A stretch of 64,000 nt of DNA from Devosia sp. XK-2 (GTDB taxonomy: Bacteria > Pseudomonadota > Alphaproteobacteria > Rhizobiales > Devosiaceae), in contig NZ_CP146608.1 of the NCBI RefSeq assembly GCF_037113415.1, positions 950,501 to 1,014,500 of the forward strand, in the 5' to 3' direction. This document shows, piece by piece, positions 19,346 through 33,126 of the stretch. How positions within the stretch are numbered: position 1 is the stretch's first letter; every line of letters begins with the position of its first letter. The notes beneath the pieces are model-generated. The model saw only the letters and a list, made by a program, of their open reading frames with translations. It was not told the DNA's origin and searched no databases. The position numbers and the translations under genes were made by a program.

Positions 19346-20926
19346 TCACATATTCGCTGCAGAGCTTACGGACATTTCACAGGGTTCAGGCGACAGGTGG
19401 CGCTGCAGAGCCCGGTGCTGAAGCGCGTCGCCCACCGCAAAGATGGTCGGCGCGGATAGTGGAAAATCCTCGACGGCTGCAATGGCGTCGCCGATCGTGC
19501 CCCGCCAGATTTGCTCTTCCGGACGCCCCAGGCTTCCAGCGATGATGGCGGGCGTTGAAAGGCTCATGCCTTTGGCAGAAAGTTCTTCGACGATGCCGGG
19601 CAAGGTGCGGCGGGACATGTAATAGACCGAGGTGGTGGCCGGATCGGCCAGCGCGGCCCAGTTGAGGGTGGTCGGTAGTGCGCCTTTGCGCGAGTGACCG
19701 GTGACGAAACGCACAGACTGGGCGTGATCGCGATGGGTGAGTGACACACCAAGACGGCTGGCCAAGGCTAGGCCGGCCGAAATGCCCGGCACCACCGAAA
19801 CAGCAATGCCATGGCTTTCCAGCATCTCGATTTCTTCGCCAGCGCGGCCAAAGATCATCGGGTCGCCCGATTTGAGCCGAACCACATGCTTGCCCTGGCG
19901 CGCCAGGGTCAGCATCATCTGGTTGATGTCGCGCTGGTCGCAACTTTCGCGCTGGGCTCTTTTGCCCACCAGCATGCGCTTGGCTTCACGGCGGGCCAGT
20001 TCCAGAACCTCGGATGACACCAGATCGTCAAAGAGAATGACATCGGCCGACTGCAGGGCCCGCACGGCCTTGATGGTCAGAAGATCGGCATCGCCCGGCC
20101 CGGCGCCAACCAGCGTGACGCGACCACCGGCCGGCTGGGCGGCAAAGGTGACGTCTTCGTCCATGGCCTCGGGCGCCCGATTGCCGAAGGCGTTTTCAGC
20201 CAATCGTTCCCAGAAGGTCCGGCGCTGCGGTCCGGCGCTGAGCTTGCCCATGACCGTTTCGCGGAGTTTTGCAGCCAATTGGGCCCATAGCGTCAGCGTC
20301 TGCGGCAACAGTGTTTCGATACGCCGCCGCACGGCTTGACCGAGAATGGGAGCGGCGCCGGCGGTGGAAATGCCCACCACAACGGGCGAACGATTGACGA
20401 TGGCGCCGAATTGGAATTGGCAGAATTCCGGGCGGTCGATGACATTATAGGGGACGGCGGCCACCTTGGCGGCAGCGGCAAAAGCCTGGGTCTCGGCGTC
20501 GTCCTCGATATCGGCAATGGCGAGGGCGGCGTTTTCGAGGTCGGCGGGCGTCCAGAGGCGGGGGTGGAGGATGACAGACCCCTCACCCAGACCCTCTCCC
20601 CGGAGGGGCGAGGGGACGATGGAGCCGCTGGGCTGCGGCTTGCAGGATGCCTCCTCACCTCGCCCCTCTGGGGAGAGGTCGGCCCGAAGGGCCGGGTGAG
20701 GGGTGCGATGCTGCAAAAGACTGCGGAGTTCCTCACAAACCGCCTCGGCAAACACATCCACTTGCGCTCCGGCGGCGGCCAAAAGCTCAATCTTCCAGGC
20801 GGCCGGCTCACCGCCGCCGATGACGACGACGCGTTTACCGCGCAGATCGAAAAAGACCGGGAGGACCGCCAGGGGCGTTATGCGGCCCGGATTATTCTGC
20901 GGCTTCGGCGACGAAACGGTTTGCAT
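19346..20926 (-). CDS. cysG: Siroheme synthase CysG with in-frame repeat insert
   Basis: 526 residues from the ATG at 20926 (MQTVSSPKPQ). Residues about 20-230 are precorrin-2 dehydrogenase/ferrochelatase (LRGKRVVVIGGGEPAAWKIE). Residues about 265-510 are uroporphyrinogen-III methyltransferase (VTLVGAGPGDADLLTIKA, RLKSGDPMIFGRAGEE, VVPGISAG, MSRRTLPGIVEEL). It makes siroheme, the cofactor of NirB, and is the last gene of nirBD-nasA-cysG, overlapping nasA by 35 bases. Residues about 73-117 (RTPHPALRADLSPEGRG and following) are encoded by a palindromic repeat and are foreign to the family, making it longer than E. coli CysG (457). All catalytic blocks downstream stay in frame. Confidence 0.92.
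   Translation of the reverse strand: MQTVSSPKPQNNPGRITPLAVLPVFFDLRGKRVVVIGGGEPAAWKIELLAAAGAQVDVFAEAVCEELRSLLQHRTPHPALRADLSPEGRGEEASCKPQPSGSIVPSPLRGEGLGEGSVILHPRLWTPADLENAALAIADIEDDAETQAFAAAAKVAAVPYNVIDRPEFCQFQFGAIVNRSPVVVGISTAGAAPILGQAVRRRIETLLPQTLTLWAQLAAKLRETVMGKLSAGPQRRTFWERLAENAFGNRAPEAMDEDVTFAAQPAGGRVTLVGAGPGDADLLTIKAVRALQSADVILFDDLVSSEVLELARREAKRMLVGKRAQRESCDQRDINQMMLTLARQGKHVVRLKSGDPMIFGRAGEEIEMLESHGIAVSVVPGISAGLALASRLGVSLTHRDHAQSVRFVTGHSRKGALPTTLNWAALADPATTSVYYMSRRTLPGIVEELSAKGMSLSTPAIIAGSLGRPEEQIWRGTIGDAIAAVEDFPLSAPTIFAVGDALQHRALQRHLSPEPCEMSVSSAANM
20578..20704. repeat. Palindromic repeat inserted in cysG
   Basis: ACCCCTCACCC at 20578-20588 is the exact reverse complement of GGGTGAGGGGT at 20694-20704. 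Between them two inverted copies of a CCTCTCCCC/GGGGCGAGG motif flank a unique centre. The CCTCACCC...CTCTCCCC...GGGGCGAGG pattern is typical of interspersed repeats of Hyphomicrobiales. It lies wholly inside the cysG frame. Confidence 0.8.
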
Positions 20927-23522
20927 CGACAATTCCCCTGATTTCGGCGCGGCAGGAGCCGCAATTGGTGCCGGCGCGGGTGAGGGCACCGACGGCTTCC
21001 ACACTGGTGCAGCCGTGGCGGGTCACGGCTTCGGTAATGGTATTGATGCCCACGCCCATGCAGGAACAGACAATGGCCCCGCCATCGGGCCGGTCGGCGC
21101 CGGGCCGCCCCGCCAGTGCGATAGATGCGGTGATATCGCGCTCGCCGAGCATGTCGACGGCCCATTGCCGGGACACCAGAACCGGATCGGGCGAGGTGTA
21201 GAGCGCGGCGACAAGCTGGCCGTCTTCGACCAGAACAAAGGCGCGGCGACCGGAGCGCTCGTCGCGAATGGACTGGAAAGGCGTCGTGGTGCCAAAAGTA
21301 TCGGCCAGAAAATCATCCCAATTGGCCGGCTCGTCGAAAAGGGCTATTTCTGCGCGCCAGCCTTTGGGGGCAGGGGCGGCGGCCCAGTAATCGGTGTCGA
21401 GAGCTGGCTTTCCTGCAGCGACGAGAAAGCCATAGAGGCGCACCCCGACCGGCTCGGCGTGAACCTGCGCCATTTTCAAGGCCGGCTGGTTCGATACCGG
21501 ATCGACCTTGCCCGTAACCAGGACGTCCACGCGACCATTGCTGGCAAATTGATCGGTCCAGTGCATGGGCACGAATAGATGGCCGCGCTGTTGGCGGTCG
21601 GTGACGAGGGCCCGGACCAGGGCCGTTCCGTGCGTGTTGGAAAGGCACACCAGACTGGCGCGACGAATGCCCAATCTGTTGGCGTCGTCCGGATGAATTT
21701 CGACAAAGGGCTCGGCCATATGCGCCGATAGACGCGCCGCTTTGCCGGTGCGCGTCATGGTGTGCCAATGGTCACGTACGCGGCCGGTATTGAGAATGAA
21801 ACTGCCCGGCGCCGGGGCAAAAGGCGGCGGCGGCTGGATCGGCAGGAAGCGCGCCTTGCCATCGGGCGTGAAGAATTTGCCATCGCCAAACATGCGGGCA
21901 GCTGGCCGTTTGCGGACAGGCCATTGCACGGGCGCCATGGTCTCGTAGTCTACGCCGGACAGGCCATTGAGATCAAAGTCGCGACTGCCGTCATTTTCGA
22001 AGGCGGAGAGGGCGGCATGCTCGGCAAAAATCTGACCCGGGCTGAAATAGGCAAAGGCCTTGCCATGGCCCAGGCGCCGGGCGACTTCCTTGACGATCCA
22101 CCAATCGGGGCGCGCCTCTCCCGGCAGGGCCAGGAACGGGCGTTGGCGAGAAATTCGTCGTTCCGAATTGGTGACGGTGCCGTTCTTTTCGCCCCAGCCG
22201 GCGGCGGGCAGCCGCACATGGGCCAGTTCCATCGTGTCGGTATTCCGGTTCATGTCGGACACGACGACAAAGGGGCAGGCCTTGAGCGCTGCGCGCACCG
22301 CATCGGCCTCGGGCATGGAATCCACCGGATTGGTTGCCATGATCCAGACGGCCTTAATCTCGCCCCGCGCTATGGCGGCGAAGAGATCGACGGCCTTGAG
22401 CCCGGGCTCGGTGGCGATGTTTGTGCTGCCCCAGAACCGCGACACTCGGTCAATCGCATCGGGGGTGAAATCCATATGGGCAGCCAGCATATTGGCCAGC
22501 CCGCCAACTTCTCGTCCGCCCATGGCATTGGGCTGCCCGGTGACCGAGAAGGGGCCCATGCCGGGCTTGCCGATCCGGCCCGTGGCAAGATGGCAATTGA
22601 TGATGGCATTGACCTTGTCGCTGCCCGCTGCCGACTGGTTGACGCCCTGGGAATAGACGGTGACGACCTTCTTGGTGCGGGCAAACAGGTCGTAGAAGCG
22701 GGTAATGGAAAGCGGGGAAAGGCCGGTGGCCTCAGCGACCCGCTCGACGGTCCAGTCCTCGGCGGTCAGGAGCGCGGCCTCGAAGCCAGACGTATAGGCG
22801 GCGATATAGTCGCTATCGGTGACCCCGACTTGGTCGAGATGGGCGAGCAATCCGACGAAAAGCGCGCTGTCGCCATCGGGCGCTACCGGCAGGTGCATTT
22901 CGGCAATGTCGGCAGAGACTGTGCGGCGCGGATCGATCAGCACAACCTTCATCTCGGGGCGTGCAGTGCGGGCCGCGACGATGCGTTGATAGAGTACCGG
23001 GTGGCACCAGCCGAGATTTGAACCGACCAGCACAATGAGGTCCGCTTCTTCAAGGTCCTCATAATTGCCTGGCACCGTGTCCGACCCAAAAGCGCGCTTG
23101 TGGCCGGCCACCGAGGAGGCCATGCAAAGACGCGAATTGGTGTCGATATTTCCCGTGCCGACAAAGCCCTTCATCAGTTTGTTGGCGACGTAATAGTCTT
23201 CGGTCAGCAGCTGGCCGGAGCCATAAATGGCAACGGAATTGGGGCCAAATTCGCTAATAGTCTGCTTGAAGTTTTTGGCAACCTCGTCGAGCGCTTCGTC
23301 CCAAGTAACTCTTTTGTCAGCGATTTGCGGATGCAGCAGGCGCCCGTCGAGCGAAAGCGTTTCGCCAAGGGCCGAGCCCTTGGAGCACAGGCGGCCGAAA
23401 TTGGCCGGGTGGTCTGGATCGCCGGCAATTTTCACCGTGCCGTCGGCTTGCGGGGTGGCGAGCACGCCGCAGCCGACGCCGCAATAGGGGCAGGTGGTGC
23501 GAACCGTCGACTGCTCCACCAT
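20892..23522 (-). CDS. nasA: Assimilatory nitrate reductase, catalytic subunit with C-terminal [2Fe-2S] domain
   Basis: 876-residue molybdopterin oxidoreductase. The N-terminal [4Fe-4S] site has Cys11, Cys14, Cys18 and Cys46 (CPYCGVGC...LCSKG). Then come MGD-binding domains (YGSGQLLTEDYYVANKLMKG, NPVDSMPEADAV, TNSERRISRQRPFL) and a molydopterin dinucleotide-binding domain (about 590-700, LNTGRVRDHWHTMTRTGKA). The C-terminus (about 810-870) adds a BFD-type [2Fe-2S] domain, CSCMGVGINTITEAV...CGSCRAEI. No Tat signal, as expected for a cytoplasmic assimilatory enzyme. Two bases separate it from nirD. Confidence 0.95.
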   Translation of the reverse strand: MVEQSTVRTTCPYCGVGCGVLATPQADGTVKIAGDPDHPANFGRLCSKGSALGETLSLDGRLLHPQIADKRVTWDEALDEVAKNFKQTISEFGPNSVAIYGSGQLLTEDYYVANKLMKGFVGTGNIDTNSRLCMASSVAGHKRAFGSDTVPGNYEDLEEADLIVLVGSNLGWCHPVLYQRIVAARTARPEMKVVLIDPRRTVSADIAEMHLPVAPDGDSALFVGLLAHLDQVGVTDSDYIAAYTSGFEAALLTAEDWTVERVAEATGLSPLSITRFYDLFARTKKVVTVYSQGVNQSAAGSDKVNAIINCHLATGRIGKPGMGPFSVTGQPNAMGGREVGGLANMLAAHMDFTPDAIDRVSRFWGSTNIATEPGLKAVDLFAAIARGEIKAVWIMATNPVDSMPEADAVRAALKACPFVVVSDMNRNTDTMELAHVRLPAAGWGEKNGTVTNSERRISRQRPFLALPGEARPDWWIVKEVARRLGHGKAFAYFSPGQIFAEHAALSAFENDGSRDFDLNGLSGVDYETMAPVQWPVRKRPAARMFGDGKFFTPDGKARFLPIQPPPPFAPAPGSFILNTGRVRDHWHTMTRTGKAARLSAHMAEPFVEIHPDDANRLGIRRASLVCLSNTHGTALVRALVTDRQQRGHLFVPMHWTDQFASNGRVDVLVTGKVDPVSNQPALKMAQVHAEPVGVRLYGFLVAAGKPALDTDYWAAAPAPKGWRAEIALFDEPANWDDFLADTFGTTTPFQSIRDERSGRRAFVLVEDGQLVAALYTSPDPVLVSRQWAVDMLGERDITASIALAGRPGADRPDGGAIVCSCMGVGINTITEAVTRHGCTSVEAVGALTRAGTNCGSCRAEIRGIVDANRFVAEAAE

Positions 23523-23865: not shown

Positions 23866-26310
23866 TTACTCCGCTGCCACTGGAAGCCCGAATTCGGCCA
23901 TGGCGGCGAATTCGTGGGCATCCTTGCCATTGACGCGTTCCTCCCAGGGGTCGACCTGGGCAAATTGCTGGGAATAGACGAAGCGGTCGTAATAGTGCCG
24001 GCGCTTGTCGAGGTCGTCGATAATGGCGGCCTTGATGCTGTCATTGCCGACGCGCTTGGCCCATTTGTAGATGCGTTCGAGATAGTGCCCCTGCTCGCGA
24101 TAGAGTTGGGTGAGGGCGACGATGATCTCGAGTGCCTCGTCTTCGCTATTGGCGTGGCCGAGGAGTTCGGTGCCCTTGATGTCGAGGCCGGCGGCGCCGG
24201 CAAAATGGATATCGTAGCCAGAGTCGACGCAGACAACGCCGATATCCTTGCAGGTGGCTTCGGCACAATTGCGCGGGCAACCGGAGACGGCGAGCTTGAC
24301 CTTGGCCGGGGTCCAGGCACCCCACATGAACTTTTCAAGGCGTACGCCAAGGCCGGTCGAGTCCTGGGTACCGAAGCGGCACCAGTCCGAGCCGACACAG
24401 GTTTTCACGGTCCTGAGGCCTTTGGCATAGGCGGCGCCAGACACCATGCCCGCGGCATTGAGATCGGCCCAGACTGCGGGCAGGTCTTCCTTTTTGACGC
24501 CAAGCAGGTCGATGCGCTGCCCGCCTGTCACCTTGACGGTCGGGATGTGGAATTTGTCGGCGACATCGGCGATGGCGCGCAATTCTCGTGGGTTGGTAAG
24601 GCCACCCCACATGCGCGGCACGACGGAATAGGTGCCGTCCTTCTGGATATTGGCGTGGACGCGTTCGTTGATGAAGCGCGACTGACCATCATCCTCATAT
24701 TCGCCGGGCCATTCGGCCACGAGGTAATAATTGAGAGCCGGACGACACTTGGCGCAGCCGCAGGAGGTCTTCCACTCCAATTCCTGCATGATTTCAGGAA
24801 TGGACTTCAGTTCCTTGGCCACGATCAGGCGGCGAACGGTGCCGTGATCGTGCTCTGTGCAGGGACACATGGGCTTGACGGCAGCCGGGTTGTAGCTGTC
24901 GCCCAGGGTGATGGCCATGAGCTTTTCGACCAGATGCGTGCATGAACCACACGAGGCCGAGGCCTTGGTATGGGCGCGCACGCCATCGAGGTCAGTCAGG
25001 CCCTTGGAAACGATCGTGCCGGTGATCGTGGATTTGCATACGCCGTTGCAGCCGCAGATTTCTGCATCATCCGGCAAGGCTGCAACGGCCGCCATAGGGT
25101 CCAGCGCGGCTCCCCCCTGATAGGCTTGGCCAAAGATTAGAGTGTCCCGCATGTCCCGCGTGTCGGTGCCCTTGCGGATCATGTCGAAGAACCATGGGCC
25201 ATCGGCGGTTTCGCCGTAGAGCACGGCACCAATAACCTTGTCTTCCTTGAGCACGAGGCGCTTGTAGATGCCCGAAGTGGCATCGCGCAGCACGATTTCC
25301 TCGCGGTCCTCGGCATCGGCGAAATCACCGGCCGAATAGACCGACACGCCGGTCACCTTGAGCTGGGTCGCGGTCTGCACCGGGCGGAAGGCGGCATCGA
25401 CCTTGGCGAGGGTTTTCGCCAGGATCTTGGCCTGGTCATAGAGCGGAGCGACGAGACCATAGACGATCTTTTCGTGTTCGACGCATTCGCCTAGGGCGAG
25501 CACGTCGGGGTCGGAGGTGACCATCTGGTCATTGACGACAATGCCACGCTCGACATGAATGCCGGCGTCGACGGCCAAGCGGGTTTCGGGACGGATGCCG
25601 ACGGCCATGACCACGATATCGGCGCCATAGACGGTGCCGTCTTCAAGCGCCACCGCCTCGACGCGATCCTCACCGAGAATGGCCTTGGTCTGGGCCTTGC
25701 AATGCACCTTGATGCCGCGTGCTTCGAGATCGCGCTGCAGGAGATAGCCGGCAGCCGGGTCGAGCTGGCGCTCCATCACATGGCCCATCAGGTGCAGCAC
25801 CACCACTTCCATGCCACGGGCATTGAGCGCGGCGGCCGCTTCGAGACCAAGCAGCCCACCGCCGATCACCACGGCCTTGGCGCCGGGGCGCTTGGAGACA
25901 TCGACCATGCGGTTGACGTCGTCGAGGTCACGGAAGGCCATGACGCCGGGCAGGTCCTTGCCGGGCAGGGGGATGATGAAGGGCGCCGAGCCGGTCGCAA
26001 TGATCAGCTTGTCATAAGGGGTTTCGCCAAGCTTGCTGACCACCACCTTGCGCTCGCGATCAATCAGTGTGACCGTCTCGCCGAAGCGCGTATGCACGCC
26101 ATTGGCCTCATACCAGGCGCTGTCATGGGTGATGATCTGCTCATATTCCTTCTCGCCGGCCAGGACCGGTGAGAGCATCAGGCGGTTGTAATTGCCGCGC
26201 GGTTCTGCGCCGAACAGCGTGACGTCGAACCGGCCCGGGGCTTCTTCGAAGATGTGTTCCAGGGCGCGGCCCGAAGCCATCCCTGCACCTACGACGACCA
26301 GTTTTTCCAT
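23866..26310 (-). CDS. nirB: NAD(P)H nitrite reductase large subunit
   Basis: 814 residues. Domains in order: FAD/NAD-binding pyridine nucleotide-disulfide reductase (about 1-390, VVVGAGMASGRALE, VVIGGGLLGLEAA), a BFD-type [2Fe-2S] domain (about 415-470, ICGCNGVCKS...CGSC), then nitrite/sulfite reductase ferredoxin-like and siroheme-[4Fe-4S] domains. The siroheme signature is CVGSDWCRFG...SGCPRNCAEATCKD. Reduces nitrite to ammonium. First gene of nirBD-nasA-cysG. Its 155-base leader contains a terminator and hairpins (see separate entries). The Shine-Dalgarno is CTGGAGCACGA. Confidence 0.95.
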   Translation of the reverse strand: MEKLVVVGAGMASGRALEHIFEEAPGRFDVTLFGAEPRGNYNRLMLSPVLAGEKEYEQIITHDSAWYEANGVHTRFGETVTLIDRERKVVVSKLGETPYDKLIIATGSAPFIIPLPGKDLPGVMAFRDLDDVNRMVDVSKRPGAKAVVIGGGLLGLEAAAALNARGMEVVVLHLMGHVMERQLDPAAGYLLQRDLEARGIKVHCKAQTKAILGEDRVEAVALEDGTVYGADIVVMAVGIRPETRLAVDAGIHVERGIVVNDQMVTSDPDVLALGECVEHEKIVYGLVAPLYDQAKILAKTLAKVDAAFRPVQTATQLKVTGVSVYSAGDFADAEDREEIVLRDATSGIYKRLVLKEDKVIGAVLYGETADGPWFFDMIRKGTDTRDMRDTLIFGQAYQGGAALDPMAAVAALPDDAEICGCNGVCKSTITGTIVSKGLTDLDGVRAHTKASASCGSCTHLVEKLMAITLGDSYNPAAVKPMCPCTEHDHGTVRRLIVAKELKSIPEIMQELEWKTSCGCAKCRPALNYYLVAEWPGEYEDDGQSRFINERVHANIQKDGTYSVVPRMWGGLTNPRELRAIADVADKFHIPTVKVTGGQRIDLLGVKKEDLPAVWADLNAAGMVSGAAYAKGLRTVKTCVGSDWCRFGTQDSTGLGVRLEKFMWGAWTPAKVKLAVSGCPRNCAEATCKDIGVVCVDSGYDIHFAGAAGLDIKGTELLGHANSEDEALEIIVALTQLYREQGHYLERIYKWAKRVGNDSIKAAIIDDLDKRRHYYDRFVYSQQFAQVDPWEERVNGKDAHEFAAMAEFGLPVAAE

Positions 26311-26340
26311 TTCGTGCTCCAGAAATCAGGTCTGAAAAAC

Positions 26341-26402
26341 AAAAAGGCCGCCAACCGACACGTCTCTGGTCCATTGACCAGTTCGTATCCGTTGGCGACC
26401 TT
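26341..26402 (-). terminator. Intrinsic terminator in the nirB leader
   Basis: On the minus strand AAGGTCGCCAAC (26402-26391) pairs with GTTGGCGGCCTT (26355 downwards) around a 35-base loop, followed by TTTTTG and more T. It lies 31 bases before the nirB start, so read-through is needed for expression. Confidence 0.85.
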
Positions 26403-26465
26403 GCCTCTAAACGCCCAACCTTGGACGTCACTTGTGTCGAAGGCGTCTTGGGAGGAGCCCCTTCA
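26403..26465 (-). ncRNA. nirB leader RNA, candidate NasT (ANTAR) binding element
   Basis: From the start site predicted by the sigma-54 box (about 26465), the RNA opens with a hairpin GAAGG/CCTTC holding the loop with TCCTCCCAAGACG. About 13 bases later ACGTCC and GGGCGT (26411-26428) form a 6-bp stem with hexaloop AAGGTT. A1 and G4 of the hexaloop match the consensus of ANTAR-bound hairpins. The terminator follows directly. The same elements occur before nrtA. Confidence 0.7.
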
Positions 26466-26475
26466 CGCCTTTCGT

Positions 26476-26491
26476 TGCAGGAACCGTGCCA
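26476..26491 (-). promoter_or_regulatory. Sigma-54 promoter of nirB
   Basis: TGGCACGGTTCCTGCA on the minus strand. GG and GC are spaced exactly as in the -24/-12 consensus TGGCACG, four bases, TTGC. An identical spacing is seen before nrtA. Confidence 0.75.
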
Positions 26492-26635
26492 GAATGGTCC
26501 GGCACGATTTTATTGTGCTCTATCCGATGGTTAGACCCATCGTCTCGGGCCGGGATGCCGAATTCCCACGGGTCCGCCGCCGCAATCGCCACCTTTGTGT
26601 TCAAAAATTGTGCAGTTCTAAAATTTCTTCGGAGC

Positions 26636-26662: not shown

Positions 26663-28405
26663 TTACTCCGCCGCTACCGACTGACCGCGCGACAGACGCT
26701 TGGACTTGATATGGTCAAGGGTGGCCTGATCGGGATTGGCGCCGCCTTCATAGGCTTCGAGGAAGTCGAGCAGTTCCTCGCGATAGGCGTAGTAATCCTT
26801 GTGGGCCAGCAATGCCTTGCGCGAGCGCGGCCGGGGCAGGTCGACCTCCATGATATTGCCGATGCGTGCATTGGGGCCGTTGGACATCATGACCACGCGG
26901 TCGGCGAGCAGGATAGCCTCGTCCACATCATGGGTGACGCAGATGGCGGTGACCTGGGTTCGTGCCCAGACATCCATAAGCACGTCCTGCAATTCCCAAC
27001 GGGTAATACTGTCGAGCATGCCGAACGGTTCGTCGAGCAGCAGGAGTTTGGGTGAAAGCGCAAAGGCGCGGGCAATGCCGACACGCTGCTTCATGCCATT
27101 GGACAGTTCGGAGGCCGGACGGTGCATGGCATCGCCCAGGCCCACGCGGTTGAGGTAATATTCAACCACGTCCCGGCGCTCGGCAGGGCTGGCCTTGGGA
27201 TAGACCCGATCCACGCCCAGCGCCACATTTTCCCGAGCGGTCAGCCAGGGCATGAGCGAAGGCGCCTGGAACACCACGGCGCGCTCGGGCCCGGCACCGA
27301 CCACCGGCTTGCCATCGAGCGCAATCGTGCCGCCCGAAATGTCGTTGAGCCCGGCAACCATCGACAGAACGGTGGATTTACCGCAGCCCGAATGACCGAT
27401 GAGGGTGACGAATTCGCCCTTCTTCATCTGGAAATCGAAGCGGTCCACCACGGTCAGCGGACCCTTGGGCGTTGGATAGACCTTCGAGACTTCATCGAAG
27501 CGGACATAATCGTCCTGGGTTTCGGAGGCCGCCGCCGCGGAATAGGCGCTAGGCAGGCGGGCCGACTTGCCACGGGCAATGGGCAGGACATTGGGCAGGG
27601 TCAGATCGGCATCACCGGACTGATTGCGGGCTGCACCCACATCCATGAGATATTCGGTAATCTCGCGACGGAGCCTGATGAACCGGTCATCGCCATTAAG
27701 GGCGGCGCGATCGCGCGGCCGCTCGATGCCGACATGAAAATCGGGGCCGAGCGTAGCCGCGGGGCCGGGTGTCAACGGGATCACGCGGTCGGCCAAAAGG
27801 ATGGCTTCGTCCACGTCATTGGTAATGAGTACAATGGTCTTTTTCTCGGCTTCCGAGATCTGGGCGAACTCATCCTGAAGCTTGGAGCGGGTGAGCGCAT
27901 CGAGCGCCGAAAGCGGTTCGTCGAGCAGCAGCACTTCTGGCTGCATGGCCAGTGCCCGGGCCACAGCAACGCGCTGCCGCATGCCACCGGACAGTTCGGC
28001 GGGCCGGCGGTCGGTGGCATGGCCGAGGCCGACCATTTCCACATAGCGCTGGCGTAGCTCCAGCTTTTCGGTGCGCGACTTGGACTTGTGCACGGCATTG
28101 ACTGCCAGGTCGACATTGCCCGCAACAGAGAGCCAGGGCATGAGCGAATAGGACTGGAACACCACGCCACGCTCCGGCCCCGGACCATCGATCTCCTTGC
28201 CGCGATAGATGACGCCGCCCAAATCCGGCTCGGACAGTCCGGCCATCAGCGAGATCAGCGTGGTCTTGCCCGCGCCCGAGAAACCGAGAATGGCGACGAA
28301 TTCGCCATCCTCGACGTCCAGATTGATGTTATCGAGAATATCCACGCGCTTGGCGCCTTCGCCAAAGTGCTTGGAAATGCCGGAGAGCTGGAGAATGGGG
28401 GCCAT
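26663..28405 (-). CDS. nrtCD: Nitrate ABC transporter ATPase, two fused ABC domains
   Basis: 580 residues with two complete ABC domains of the NrtC/NrtD (SsuB/TauB-like) family. Domain 1 has Walker A GFSGAGKTT (about residue 41), signature LSGGMRQR and LLLDEPLSALD. Domain 2, from about residue 305, has GHSGCGKST, signature LSNGMKQR and LLLDEPFGMLD. Unlike cyanobacterial NrtC, there is no fused solute-binding domain; the two ATPases are joined into one chain, so a single gene supplies the ATP-hydrolysing dimer. Ten bases after nrtB. Ends 10 bp before the NtrC-like site of nirB. Confidence 0.9.
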   Translation of the reverse strand: MAPILQLSGISKHFGEGAKRVDILDNINLDVEDGEFVAILGFSGAGKTTLISLMAGLSEPDLGGVIYRGKEIDGPGPERGVVFQSYSLMPWLSVAGNVDLAVNAVHKSKSRTEKLELRQRYVEMVGLGHATDRRPAELSGGMRQRVAVARALAMQPEVLLLDEPLSALDALTRSKLQDEFAQISEAEKKTIVLITNDVDEAILLADRVIPLTPGPAATLGPDFHVGIERPRDRAALNGDDRFIRLRREITEYLMDVGAARNQSGDADLTLPNVLPIARGKSARLPSAYSAAAASETQDDYVRFDEVSKVYPTPKGPLTVVDRFDFQMKKGEFVTLIGHSGCGKSTVLSMVAGLNDISGGTIALDGKPVVGAGPERAVVFQAPSLMPWLTARENVALGVDRVYPKASPAERRDVVEYYLNRVGLGDAMHRPASELSNGMKQRVGIARAFALSPKLLLLDEPFGMLDSITRWELQDVLMDVWARTQVTAICVTHDVDEAILLADRVVMMSNGPNARIGNIMEVDLPRPRSRKALLAHKDYYAYREELLDFLEAYEGGANPDQATLDHIKSKRLSRGQSVAAE

Positions 28406-29538: not shown

Positions 29539-30948
29539 TCAGTTGGCGGCAACCACTTCGGCCCCGACGACGCTGTCGCCGGTCTTGAGGCCGATTTCGA
29601 GGCTGTCAATATAGGCGTTGGGCTTGGTGCCATCATAGGTGACGCCGTCGATGAACTCGGCGGTCGGCTCGCGATAGCCGGCGCTGTCCCAGGGGAAATC
29701 GGCCTCGTCGACCAGCCCTTCCTCGACCAGCAGGCGTGCGGCTTCGAGATAGATTTCGGGCTTGTAGACGGACTTGGCGACCTCGTCATACCAGCTATCG
29801 GGCTGGTCCTCAGCGATCTGCCCCCACCGGCGCATCTGGGTGAGATACCAGACGGCGTCCGAATAATAGGGATAGGTGGCAAAGTAGCGGTAGAAAACGT
29901 TGAAATCGGGAACGTCACGGACGTCGCCGGCTTCGAATTCGAACGTGCCGGTCATCGAGGCGGCGATCACTTCGGCATCGGCGCCCACATATTCGGAGCG
30001 GGAGAGGATTTCCACCGCCTCCTGGCGATTGGCATTGTCATTCTCGTCCAGCCACTTGGCCGCGCGGATCAATGCCTTGGTGATGGCCAGCGTGGTATTG
30101 GGATTGGCCTCGGTGAATTCGGCGGTCATGCCGAACACTTTCTCCGGGTTATTCTTCCAGATGTCGTAATCGGTGATGACCGGCACGCCGATCTTTTTGA
30201 ACACCGCGGCCTGGTTCCAGGGCTCGCCCACTGCATAGCCGTCAATCGTGCCCGCTTCGAGCGTGGCCGGCATTTGTGGCGGCGGGGTCACCGAGAGATA
30301 GGCATCGGCCGCTATCTGCCCCGAAACATCTTCCGGCGAGTAATAGCCTGGATTGACGCCGCCGGCCGCGAGCCAATAGCGCAGCTCGTAATTGTGGGTG
30401 GAGACGGGAAAGACCATGCCCAGATTGAAGGGGCGGCCTTCGGCGTCGAATTCATCGATCACAGGTTTCAGCGCGGCGGCGGAAATCGGATGCACCGGCT
30501 TGCCCTCGGCATCCATTTCCAGATGCGGCTTCATCAGCTCCCACACGGCATTGGAGACGGTAATGCCATTGCCATTGAGATCCATGGAGAAGGGAGTGAC
30601 GATATGCGCCTTGGTGCCATAGCCGATCGTGGCGGCCAACGGCTGGCCGGCCAGCATATGAGCACCATCCAGGGTTCCGGTGATGACACCGTCCAGCAGC
30701 ACCTTCCAATTGGCCTGCGGTTCCAGCGTCACATAGAGGCCTTCGTCCTCGAAATAGCCAAGCTCATAGGCAATGGCGAGCGGGGCCATGTCGGTGAGCT
30801 TGATAAAGCCAAACTTCAGCTCGTCCTTTTCGACGTCGAGCATGGCCGCATTGCTGGCGGTGCTGGCCAGGAGGCCCAGTGCAAGTCCGGCCAGCAACGG
30901 CTTGAGGCGGCGGCGTGGCGGCGTGGGGCGGGTAGTCGCAGTCATCAT
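29539..30948 (-). CDS. nrtA: Nitrate ABC transporter substrate-binding protein
   Basis: About 469 residues from tandem ATGs at 30948/30945; GGAG lies 6 bases before the second. A basic n-region ([20 protein letters not shown]) and hydrophobic core form an export signal that could be Sec or Tat. The mature part is a CmpA/NrtA-type binding protein ([50 protein letters not shown]). NasS downstream of nasT is its cytoplasmic paralogue. A 180-base leader with its own sigma-54 box and terminator precedes it. Confidence 0.92.
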
Positions 30949-30998
30949 CGTCTCCGTGTTGTGTCGACAACCGGCAGCCAAGCCGTGCTCCAAACGAC

Positions 30999-31063
30999 AA
31001 AAAGGTCGCCAACTGATCCGCGCGCCGATCCATCCGATCGAACGCTAGCCAGTTGGCGACCTT
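30999..31063 (-). terminator. Intrinsic terminator in the nrtA leader
   Basis: AAGGTCGCCAACT and AGTTGGCGACCTT (13 bp, perfect) enclose about 37 bases and end in TTTTTG on the minus strand, about 50 bases before the nrtA start. The stem is nearly identical to that before nirB, while the loop sequence differs. Confidence 0.87.
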
Positions 31064-31128
31064 GCCATTGGAGCGCCCGTCATCGGACGCCGATAGTGTG
31101 TGAGCCGTCTTGGGAGGAGCTCATTCGC
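31064..31128 (-). ncRNA. nrtA leader RNA, candidate NasT (ANTAR) binding element
   Basis: From the predicted start (about 31127) the RNA forms TGAGC/GCTCA around loop TCCTCCCAAGACG, identical to the loop before nirB. Then GCGTCC and GGGCGC (31073-31090) form a stem with hexaloop GATGAC (G at position 4). Relative to nirB, the outer base pair changes from A-T to G-C on both sides, a compensatory change. A terminator follows. Confidence 0.7.
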
Positions 31129-31137
31129 CCTTCACAT

Positions 31138-31153
31138 TGCACGAAGCGTGCCA
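31138..31153 (-). promoter_or_regulatory. Sigma-54 promoter of nrtA
   Basis: TGGCACGCTTCGTGCA on the minus strand; GG and GC at the -24/-12 spacing, one base from the consensus -12 block. Ten bases upstream of the predicted leader start. Confidence 0.72.
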
Positions 31154-31308: not shown

Positions 31309-32517
31309 TTACTTGGTCGCCTGGGACTGAATATAGCTGTCGACCGCGTCAGGATCGAAAACTTTACCGTCGAAAAAGCGGTTGGGGCCGGCCTGCATGG
31401 TGCCGGTCACGGCGGCAATGGTGTGGCTCTGGGCCTGGTCGCCATCACGACGATAATCGTCGGCGGGCAAGGATGCGCCAAGAGGGGCGAGTGCCGCGCG
31501 GTAGAGATCGGGCCGGAAGGTGGCGGCGGCTATTTCCGCGCGAGCCTGATTAGGCGTGACCTCGCCCCAGCGTACCATCTGGCTGTAATACCAGAGCGCG
31601 TGGCTCTTCCATGGGAAATTGGCGGCGCCCTCATGCGGCACATAAAAGTCGGGAATGGTGACCTGATGAACGCCGCCGTCAATCTGCCCGGTCAGGGCGC
31701 GTGAAACGATATCGACGGGCTGATTGAGATAGGCGGGCCTGGCCATGATCTCGGCGGCCTGCAAGCGGTTTTCCGGCCTTTGACACCATTCGCCGGCGCG
31801 GTAGATGGCGCGAATTGTTGCAGCAACCAGATCGGGGTTCTGCTTGGCCCAATCGCTGCGCATGCCGACCGCCTTGTCGGGGCTGCGCTGCCAGATGGAT
31901 GACTTGGTCGTGGCGATCCGCGCGCCGAACTGGGCAACCCCGACACTGTTCCAGGGTTCGCCGACGCAATAGCCATCCAGCCCATCCGTGCCCAGCGCCT
32001 CTGGCAGCAAGGGCGGCGGAAGGACAACGATCTCGACATCGCGATCCGGATGAATGCCACTGGCCGCCAGCCAATAGCGCAACTCGTAATTGTGCGAGGA
32101 GGTCTGGTGCACCACGCCAAAGCGCAGCTTGCGGGTGCTGGACTGGACGACTTTTGCCAGCGCCCGGCCAGCGGGGCCGGCGGCAAGATCGCCAGGCGCC
32201 CCGGCATCGGCCATGGCCGACCAGATTGCGGCGCTGACGGTAATGGCATTATTGCCCAGGCCGGTCATGACTGGCGCGATCATTGGCTTTGCTATGGGCG
32301 TCAGCCCGAGATTGGCGGCAATCGGCATCGGCGCCAGCACCAGGGCAATGTCGAAATGTCCGAGCGCAGTACGGTCACGGATATTGGCCCAGGAGGATTC
32401 GCGCGTCAGGCCAAGCGTAAAGCCTTCCTCCTCGGCAATGCCCAGTTCGCGGGCCAGCACCAGCAGGGCGCTGTCCAAAAGGGGAAGAAAACCGGCGGTG
32501 AGGTGAGGAAGGGACAT
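31309..32517 (-). CDS. nasS: NasS nitrate/nitrite sensor (cytoplasmic NrtA-like protein)
   Basis: 402 residues of the CmpA/NrtA binding-protein family but with no signal peptide (MSLPHLTAGFLPLLDSALLV), as expected for NasS. Family motifs: [50 protein letters not shown]. In other proteobacteria NasS holds NasT inactive until nitrate or nitrite binds. Nine bases after nasT. Confidence 0.92.
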   Translation of the reverse strand: MSLPHLTAGFLPLLDSALLVLARELGIAEEEGFTLGLTRESSWANIRDRTALGHFDIALVLAPMPIAANLGLTPIAKPMIAPVMTGLGNNAITVSAAIWSAMADAGAPGDLAAGPAGRALAKVVQSSTRKLRFGVVHQTSSHNYELRYWLAASGIHPDRDVEIVVLPPPLLPEALGTDGLDGYCVGEPWNSVGVAQFGARIATTKSSIWQRSPDKAVGMRSDWAKQNPDLVAATIRAIYRAGEWCQRPENRLQAAEIMARPAYLNQPVDIVSRALTGQIDGGVHQVTIPDFYVPHEGAANFPWKSHALWYYSQMVRWGEVTPNQARAEIAAATFRPDLYRAALAPLGASLPADDYRRDGDQAQSHTIAAVTGTMQAGPNRFFDGKVFDPDAVDSYIQSQATK

Positions 32518-32526
32518 GGCGATTTC

Positions 32527-33126
32527 CTATGGCCCAAGCAGATTGGCGGCTGTGATGAGACTCTGGGCAATGTCGATCAGCCGCCGGTTCTGGTTCATGG
32601 CCGTCTTGCGCAAAAGCGCATAAGCGTCCGGTTCGCTCAGGCCCTTGGTCTTCATCAGAATGCCCTTGGCCTGGTCGATGATCTTGCGTTCCTCGAGCGC
32701 GCTGCGGGCCTCTTCCAACTCCCGCGTGAGGCGCGAAAAGGCGTTGAAGCGCGAAATGGCCATGTCCAGGATGGGCTTAACCCGCTCCTTTTTGAGGCCG
32801 TCCACCACATAGGCCGAGACGCCGGCTTCGACGGCCTTTTCGATCATGGTGCCATCAGAGCGGTCGACGAACATGGCGATCGGACGCTGAATGGCGCGCG
32901 TCAGGGAAAAGAAGTGCTCGAGCGTGTCGCGCTTGGGATTTTCCAGGTCGATGAAAATGACATCGGGCATGGTCAGGGCAATAGTGCGTCCGACCTCGTT
33001 GACGTCGTGGATGACGGCAACGCGTGCATAGCCCGCCTCCCGCAGACCCTCCTCGATGATCGAGGCGCGGATGCGGTTCTCGTCGATGATCAAGATGGAC
33101 AGGTCGGGGCTCGGCATCAGTGGCAC
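32527..33126 (-). CDS. nasT: NasT, ANTAR-domain antiterminator
   Basis: 199 residues. Residues about 8-125 form a receiver-like domain (LSILIIDENRIRASIIEEGL, VIFIDLENPKRDTLEHFFSL). The C-terminal ANTAR domain (about 135-195) has ALEERKIIDQAKGILMKTKG and the following alanine/aromatic pattern. NasT binds two-hairpin leader RNAs and prevents termination in nitrate-assimilation operons; the leaders before nirB and nrtA are obvious targets. GTG at 33126 has AAGG at 5-base spacing; ATG at 33117 has no Shine-Dalgarno. Confidence 0.93.
   Translation of the reverse strand: MPLMPSPDLSILIIDENRIRASIIEEGLREAGYARVAVIHDVNEVGRTIALTMPDVIFIDLENPKRDTLEHFFSLTRAIQRPIAMFVDRSDGTMIEKAVEAGVSAYVVDGLKKERVKPILDMAISRFNAFSRLTRELEEARSALEERKIIDQAKGILMKTKGLSEPDAYALLRKTAMNQNRRLIDIAQSLITAANLLGP

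Follow-up and report, generated by a model that had tools for sequence, protein, structure and literature searches.

Candidate NasT-controlled attenuators before nirB and nrtA of Devosia sp. XK-2, with a conserved hairpin at the predicted transcript end

Introduction

The nitrite reductase gene nirB of Devosia sp. XK-2 is preceded by a stretch in which a sigma-54 box, RNA hairpins and a predicted terminator follow one another, and the question that this arrangement raises is whether the leader is a switch, worked by the antiterminator NasT, that admits transcription into the gene when nitrate is present. As described in the accessible portions of the relevant reports, nitrate or nitrite causes the NasS-NasT complex of Paracoccus to come apart, and the nasA leader is bound by NasT (PMC3795266); a hairpin-I mutant of this leader behaved like a nasT mutant on nitrate (PMC5424462). 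NasR selects two hairpins with a closing C:G pair and hexaloops carrying A at position 1 and G at position 4 (A1/G4) (PMC7496416), and under one proposal an ANTAR dimer contacts the hexaloops one after the other (PMC8934654). In the eut leaders the second hairpin, P2, overlaps the terminator and lies behind a linker of 5-12 nt, lengths of 3 and 14 nt failing, and the same source mentions ANTAR-type matches near nitrite reductase genes in general terms (Ramesh et al.; PMC3369931).

The nirB leader and its gene neighbourhood

In the window analysed here, a stretch of 64,000 nucleotides of contig NZ_CP146608.1, nirB (nitrite reductase large subunit, assigned from the open reading frame list and Pfam) occupies positions 23866-26310 of the minus strand, with its ATG at 26310, and is followed on its 3' side and on the same strand by a nasC-type molybdopterin reductase gene (20892-23522) and by cysG (19346-21004; named by eye from its translation). 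On the other side of the leader lies an nrt ATP-binding gene (26663-28405, minus strand), and the leader sits inside the 352-nt gap between this gene and nirB. Also on the minus strand are the gene for an nrtA-type nitrate-binding protein (29539-30993; Pfam NMT1_2), whose start in the open reading frame list is perhaps placed too far upstream, nasS (31309-32517), encoding a nitrate-sensor-like partner with a Pfam NMT1_2 domain, and nasT (32527-33126), the product of which combines a receiver and an ANTAR domain (Pfam Response_reg and ANTAR). The original prediction had put nasT and nasS about 6 kb upstream of nirB; with their domains identified by Pfam they lie 5.0-6.8 kb away, and nasT, adjoining the nitrate-binding-protein-like nasS as expected of a NasS-NasT pair, is the sole ANTAR match in the genome. 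The genome further contains rpoN and one ntrC above the curated cut-off. Within the cysG frame, an in-frame palindromic stretch, CCTCACCCGGCCC.../...GGGTGAGGGG (20560-20710, minus strand), has the appearance of a palindromic repeat lying within a coding gene; a search of the window with one guessed pattern found no copy.

The box, hairpin, hexaloop hairpin and terminator from which the original prediction had composed the leader are all in place between 26311 and 26491 on the minus strand. The sigma-54 (-24/-12) box, TGGCACGGTTCCTGCA, lies at 26476-26491, and its spacing predicts a transcript start at about 26465. Downstream are a 5'-terminal hairpin (26439-26464), in which a conserved 15-nt motif, GCTCCTCCCAAGACG (26444-26458), is flanked by a short stem, and the ANTAR hexaloop hairpins P1, GACGTCC-AAGGTT-GGGCGTT (26410-26429), and P2, GGC-AAGGTC-GCC (26394-26405), each with A1, G4 and a closing C:G pair. 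The predicted intrinsic terminator, GGTCGCCAAC...GTTGGCGGCC, spans 26346-26400 (26335-26400 with its tail, TTTTTGTTTTT). Folding, which had been proposed as a check, gave -80.3 kcal/mol for positions 26311-26500 (190 nt; z -3.61), a value as good being reached by 3 of 200 shuffles, and the terminator folded alone gave -37.7 kcal/mol. The GC-rich stem and T tail attributed to the terminator are confirmed, but not the stem length of 12 bp: in the fold of 26311-26500 the lower stem has 11 bp and continues into two inner stems of 6 bp each. A simple terminator scan did not report this terminator, probably because the scan counts only loops of 3-8 nt. No Rfam family was matched in the nirB leader or in the nrtA leader described below (4227 models, window positions 15000-38000, with four matches at E<=1, all elsewhere).

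The original prediction overlooked P2, as it did a twin leader before nrtA. The last seven bases of P2 are the first seven of the terminator 5' arm (26394-26400), so that P2 and the terminator are mutually exclusive, and it is this overlap by which P2 completes a canonical ANTAR dual-hexaloop attenuator. The linker between P1 and P2 measures 4 nt if the outer G.T pair of P1 is counted, which is just under the eut range, and 5 nt if P1 is taken as 6 bp.

A twin leader before nrtA

The same order of elements recurs on the minus strand in the gap between nasS and nrtA (30996-31153), where a sigma-54 box (31138-31153) is followed by a 15-nt motif identical to that of the nirB leader (31106-31120), by P1 with the sequence GGCGTCC-GATGAC-GGGCGCT (31072-31091), by a P2 identical to that before nirB (31055-31066), and by a terminator with a TTTTTG tail (31004-31061; -37.8 kcal/mol). 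The P1-P2 linker is 5 nt. The P1 loop, GATGAC, conforms to the A1/G4 rule in part, keeping G4 and having G in place of A at position 1. This substitution (GATGAC, GACGAC and similar) was also seen in six further leaders of nrtA type (L011, L014, L024, L060, L061 and L083). A 14-nt form of the 5' motif, CTCCTCCCAAGACG, has exactly two copies in the 3.8 Mb genome, and both sit in these leaders, on which ground a chance origin was rejected; three copies with one mismatch (L004-L006) lie elsewhere in the genome, inside long open frames.

Conservation of the P1+P2 core and its co-occurrence with ANTAR genes

A set of 38 distinct leaders bearing the 5' loop was assembled from a pattern search of 136 genomes of the family, biased to TCCTCCCA, together with earlier loci and fetched stretches, and was also selected on (A/C)GACG. 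A sigma-54 box stands 18-21 nt before TCCTCCC in all 38. The original prediction depended on stems being conserved in homologous leaders, and those of P1 and P2 are indeed kept: RNAalifold, applied to the alignment of the 38, predicted P1 and P2 unprompted and nothing else. In P1, 99.7% of cells pair, as against 35-62% when the partner is slid, and 14 compensatory cells occur at one pair. Three of five measures in the P1/P2 structure count exceeded every shuffle, and two lay within the shuffles (a both-side change count of 1, reached by 463 of 500, and 6 further pair types, reached by 500 of 500). The stem of P2 is invariant, and P2 is consequently without covariation support.

So that the 5' loop would no longer bias the search, a covariance model, R1, was built from P1 and P2 alone (35 sequences). 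Such a search of relatives had been suggested at the outset, and R1 matched 74 of the 136 family genomes at E<=0.01, of which 69 had a strong match (1.3e-4 or better); misses are possible, since 48 first-look candidates per genome were scored under strict filters. In Devosia sp. XK-2 itself, R1 matched the nirB and nrtA leaders only (E<=0.01), both of which belong to its training set. An ANTAR domain is encoded in 75 of the 136 genomes, and its distribution follows that of the leader closely: among the 69 genomes with a strong R1 match, 68 have an ANTAR gene, and among the remaining 67 only 7 have one (Fisher p 2e-29, a value that overstates independence because the genomes are related). The exceptions are G371, which has a strong match and no ANTAR match, and G298, G389, G396 and G399-G402, which have ANTAR and no strong R1 match. 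In five genomes (G299, G330, G347, G355 and G360) weak matches (E 0.001-0.01) are the only ones, and none of these genomes has an ANTAR match. The strong match in G371, a genome of 2.0 Mb, is a P1+P2 core before a nirB-like gene (L116); the antiterminator of this genome may have been lost or may be unassembled.

Among 297 genomes of the order, R1 matched 33 at E<=0.001, nine of them family members and the other 24 spread over ten further families. The 38 loop-bearing leaders, 63 further family leaders and 21 of 25 places from other families (four were without a locus) gave 122 leaders for comparison, of which 121 could be parsed. Position 1 of the P1 loop is A in 113, G in 7 and C in 1, position 4 is G in 120 of 121, and P2 has A1 and G4 in all 121. 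These letter counts lean towards the motif, R1 itself favouring such letters, since its training set contains both window leaders and was drawn from leaders found with a pattern that fixed A1 and G4 of P2. A loose pattern found a sigma-54-like box in 114 of the 122. Judging from translated starts, we take the genes behind the R1-found leaders to be of nirB, nrtA and narK type, with nasC-type nitrate reductase genes behind L140, L143 and L146, cysG behind L115, L128 and L142, and a gene of apparent FocA/NirC type behind L093 and L094. The three leaders before presumed nasC-type genes have P1 and P2 and no sigma-54 box by the pattern used, so the attenuator may there sit behind another promoter type.

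A conserved loop at the predicted 5' end

In the nirB leader the 5' hairpin has a weak-sided stem of 5 pairs and a 12-nt loop, UCCUCCCAAGAC (TCCTCCCAAGAC), that starts at about +9 of the predicted RNA; with the start predicted at about 26465, the CTCCTCCC hairpin would lie at or next to the RNA 5' end. With at most one change the loop is present in 38 of the 101 family leaders, in 37 of them exactly and in one with a single change. This exactness is partly due to selection, as the searches favoured TCCTCCCA and (A/C)GACG, and the R1-based 38 of 101 is the less biased figure. Four more family leaders come within two edits of the loop, and the remaining 59 of the 101 are no closer to it than shuffled sequence.

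Within the 38 leaders, the six pairs of the stem form in 208 of 228 cells, compared with 84-121 when slid, and one pair occurs as U-A, A-U, G-C and G-U. The pairing score of 223 exceeds a mean of 203 and was reached by none of 2000 partner reshufflings, the leaders being related. RNAalifold did not predict the 5' hairpin on the 38-leader alignment, in which its two registers are not aligned; in 22 of the 38 the motif continues in another register after the loop.

The distribution of the loop was followed with several patterns. The exact motif pattern occurs at 21 places in 17 of the 297 order genomes (5 genomes with the backward control); 11 of these places, in seven family genomes, are leaders, and the other 10 have no P1 or P2 nearby by eye. 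A looser pattern matched 40 of the 136 family genomes (control, 4), some of the matches not being leaders. A gapped pattern drew 56 stretches from the genome collection. R1 matched 25 of them at E<=0.01 (28 matches) and left 31 unmatched; the 25 come from Devosia, Pelagibacterium, one Rhizobiales MAG and one Alphaproteobacteria MAG. Judged by these sequences, conservation of the CTCCTCCC loop is peculiar to Devosia and Pelagibacterium, apart from a single match in an Alphaproteobacteria MAG. It is found on leaders of nrtA, narK or nirB type, varying by genome, which argues against its pairing with one particular downstream gene.

The attenuator core exists without the CTCCTCCC hairpin. Family leaders that lack the loop carry different 5' segments, such as GCGC-TTCG-GCGC before nirB, some of them hairpins of UUCG type. 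Of the box-bearing leaders (114), nine begin directly with P1 at the predicted start, and in the other 105 a separate segment precedes P1. Taken together, these 105 segments are better folders than their shuffles (37 reach p<=0.05 and 78 reach p<=0.2), and a hairpin at the transcript end thus seems usual for sigma-54 NasT leaders. By group, p<=0.05 is reached by 4 of 38 loop-bearing segments, by 23 of 51 from other leaders of the family and by 10 of 16 from other families; folding is weakest in the loop-bearing hairpins, and fold strength was accordingly rejected as their hallmark.

The 5' hairpin was also considered as a third ANTAR hexaloop, and no such hexaloop was seen at this place in the family. 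By eye, four of the 21 leaders from other families (L161, L167, L173 and L175) have a C-closed A1/G4 hexaloop there, with the letters AAAGAT, AACGAT, AGGGTT and AAAGTC, respectively; some NasT leaders of other families may, on this evidence, hold three ANTAR sites in a row.

Discussion

With the parts, their conservation and covariation, the overlap of P2 with the terminator and the co-occurrence with an ANTAR gene all directly observed, the nirB leader and its nrtA twin are very probably NasT-controlled transcription attenuators of the ANTAR dual-hexaloop kind. In this scheme, NtrC and sigma-54 would start transcription at about 26465 under nitrogen limitation. As long as nitrate is absent, NasS would hold NasT, and the nascent RNA would fold the terminator and stop some 120-130 nt in. 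On nitrate or nitrite, NasS would release NasT, which would bind hexaloop P1 and then P2; P2, held folded, would use up the 5' arm of the terminator, and RNA polymerase would read into nirB (or nrtA). That the leader is a likely target of NasT antitermination, as originally proposed, gains support from the conserved stems, from the co-occurrence of R1 matches with ANTAR genes and from NasT being the only ANTAR match of the genome, so that on comparison of sequences NasT antitermination appears well supported. The binding of NasT to the nirB leader RNA and nitrate-dependent read-through we infer from relatives, and by the same analogy nitrate sensing by NasS-NasT, control by NtrC and the start site would hold in Devosia sp. 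XK-2. A consideration against a nitrate switch comes from Sinorhizobium meliloti, in which narB/nirB expression is reported, in the part of the paper available, to rise ~1000-fold once ammonium was removed, nitrate bringing only a slight increase (PMC6616083).

As far as its letters can tell, the nirB leader fits each published structural point, and the attenuator core is of a known kind and ordinary in principle. According to accessible descriptions, the NasT-controlled leaders of Paracoccus nasA and of Bradyrhizobium nosR and nirA (PMC3795266, PMC5424462, PMC6759348) share with it NasS-NasT, a terminator leader before nitrate/nitrite or denitrification genes, and hairpins of NasT type, and the Azotobacter nas leader, known through citation, has the same likeness. 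Compared with these nas/nos leaders by description rather than letter by letter, Devosia differs in that one cluster contains two leaders, each following a sigma-54 box, and in the extra 5'-terminal hairpin with its conserved loop. The Klebsiella nasF leader, read by NasR, likewise has two hairpins with closing C:G pairs and A1/G4 hexaloops (PMC7496416, as available), but NasR is one protein with a NIT sensor, whereas NasS and NasT are separate in Devosia. The EutV-dependent eut leaders of Enterococcus and Listeria share the P1/P2 hexaloops, the exclusion between P2 and terminator and the short linker (PMC3369931, PMC8934654, as available), and differ in signal, partner kinase and genes. The TCCTCCC hairpin does not figure in the accessible descriptions of dual-hexaloop motifs compared, those of the eut leaders included. 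At least in the accessible literature on NasT/NasS, on ANTAR proteins and on nitrate in Devosia, to which subscription papers mostly do not belong, no published account of the nirB leader or of the TCCTCCC hairpin was found.

The position of the leader, in a 352-nt gap behind the nrt ATP-binding gene, is where a terminator closing the upstream nrt transcript would be expected, and the structure might do only that, with nirB controlled elsewhere and the hexaloops incidental. This is very improbable, because box, hairpin, P1, P2 and terminator follow one another in the same way between nasS and nrtA, and do so again before narK-, nirB- and nrtA-type genes of relatives with A1/G4 loops and a co-occurring ANTAR gene. 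The 5' motif, for its part, could be read as a short leader peptide, ATG AGC TCC TCC CAA GAC GGC TCA, often then a stop, since ATG and stop frame the motif in, for example, L014 and L016. The register, however, differs between the two loop types, the 22 of 38 leaders in another register including one (L031) with an ATG there by eye, and no stop directly follows the motif in the nrtA leader of the window; the peptide is extremely improbable and was rejected.

For the extra 5' hairpin the most likely role is that of a cap protecting the leader where the transcript begins, and it is quite possible, at somewhat below even chances, that the hairpin is purely structural, its loop being kept only because the clade is recent or because recombination homogenises the leaders. 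A separate 5' segment is the rule in box-bearing leaders (105 of 114), such segments fold better than shuffles as a group and have unrelated loops outside the CTCCTCCC set, and the loop may sit on both the nirB and the nrtA leader of a genome or, in other genomes, on only one of the two. Against a plain cap, the loop stays constant in the 38 leaders amid variation in the stems, in the P1 loop and in the sequence following the hairpin (part of the loop having been selected by the searches), the loop is kept in both Devosia and Pelagibacterium, and the weak folding of its hairpins (4 of 38 at p<=0.05) would be odd. That the loop is read by some conserved partner is a conjecture. One form of it, compatible with the attenuator, would make the terminated leader a stable small RNA that, under nitrogen scarcity and without nitrate, binds mRNAs in trans through its anti-Shine-Dalgarno-like loop (UCCUCCC). 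In 37 of the 38 leaders that bear it, this loop is unaltered, above a covarying stem; it lies at the predicted 5' end of an RNA that a strong terminator would close on the 3' side, and it occurs before nrtA-, narK- or nirB-type genes without being tied to one. A paper on alpha-rhizobial AbcR sRNAs contains the words anti-Shine-Dalgarno and CUCCUCCC (PMC8844928), and EutX/Rli55 are a precedent for terminated RNAs with ANTAR sites that act in trans (PMC8934654). But 59 of 101 family leaders contain nothing within two edits of the loop, and some have UUCG-type hairpins in its place, and we regard the small RNA, argued from sequence, as improbable. A two-purpose RNA, serving as the NasT switch of nirB and nrtA and, in a terminated form of 120-130 nt accumulating under nitrogen limitation, acting through its loop in trans on ribosome-binding sites or capturing a protein, is likewise unlikely; if it existed, the leader would tie general nitrogen starvation to other mRNAs.

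For the nirB and nrtA leaders as NasT-controlled attenuators, the present analysis adds the second hexaloop, P2, the twin nrtA leader, a working family model and the conserved 5' hairpin, the loop of which is a concrete element and the less ordinary part of the leader. In 2019, the regulation of S. meliloti narB/nirB was called not yet known (PMC6616083, in the part available). Nitrate assimilation in Devosia would, on the reading preferred here, stand under a likely double gate, with nitrogen limitation acting through sigma-54 and nitrate through NasT, at two parallel leaders, and R1 finds like leaders before what appear to be nrtA-, narK-, nirB-, nasC- and cysG-type genes in its relatives.
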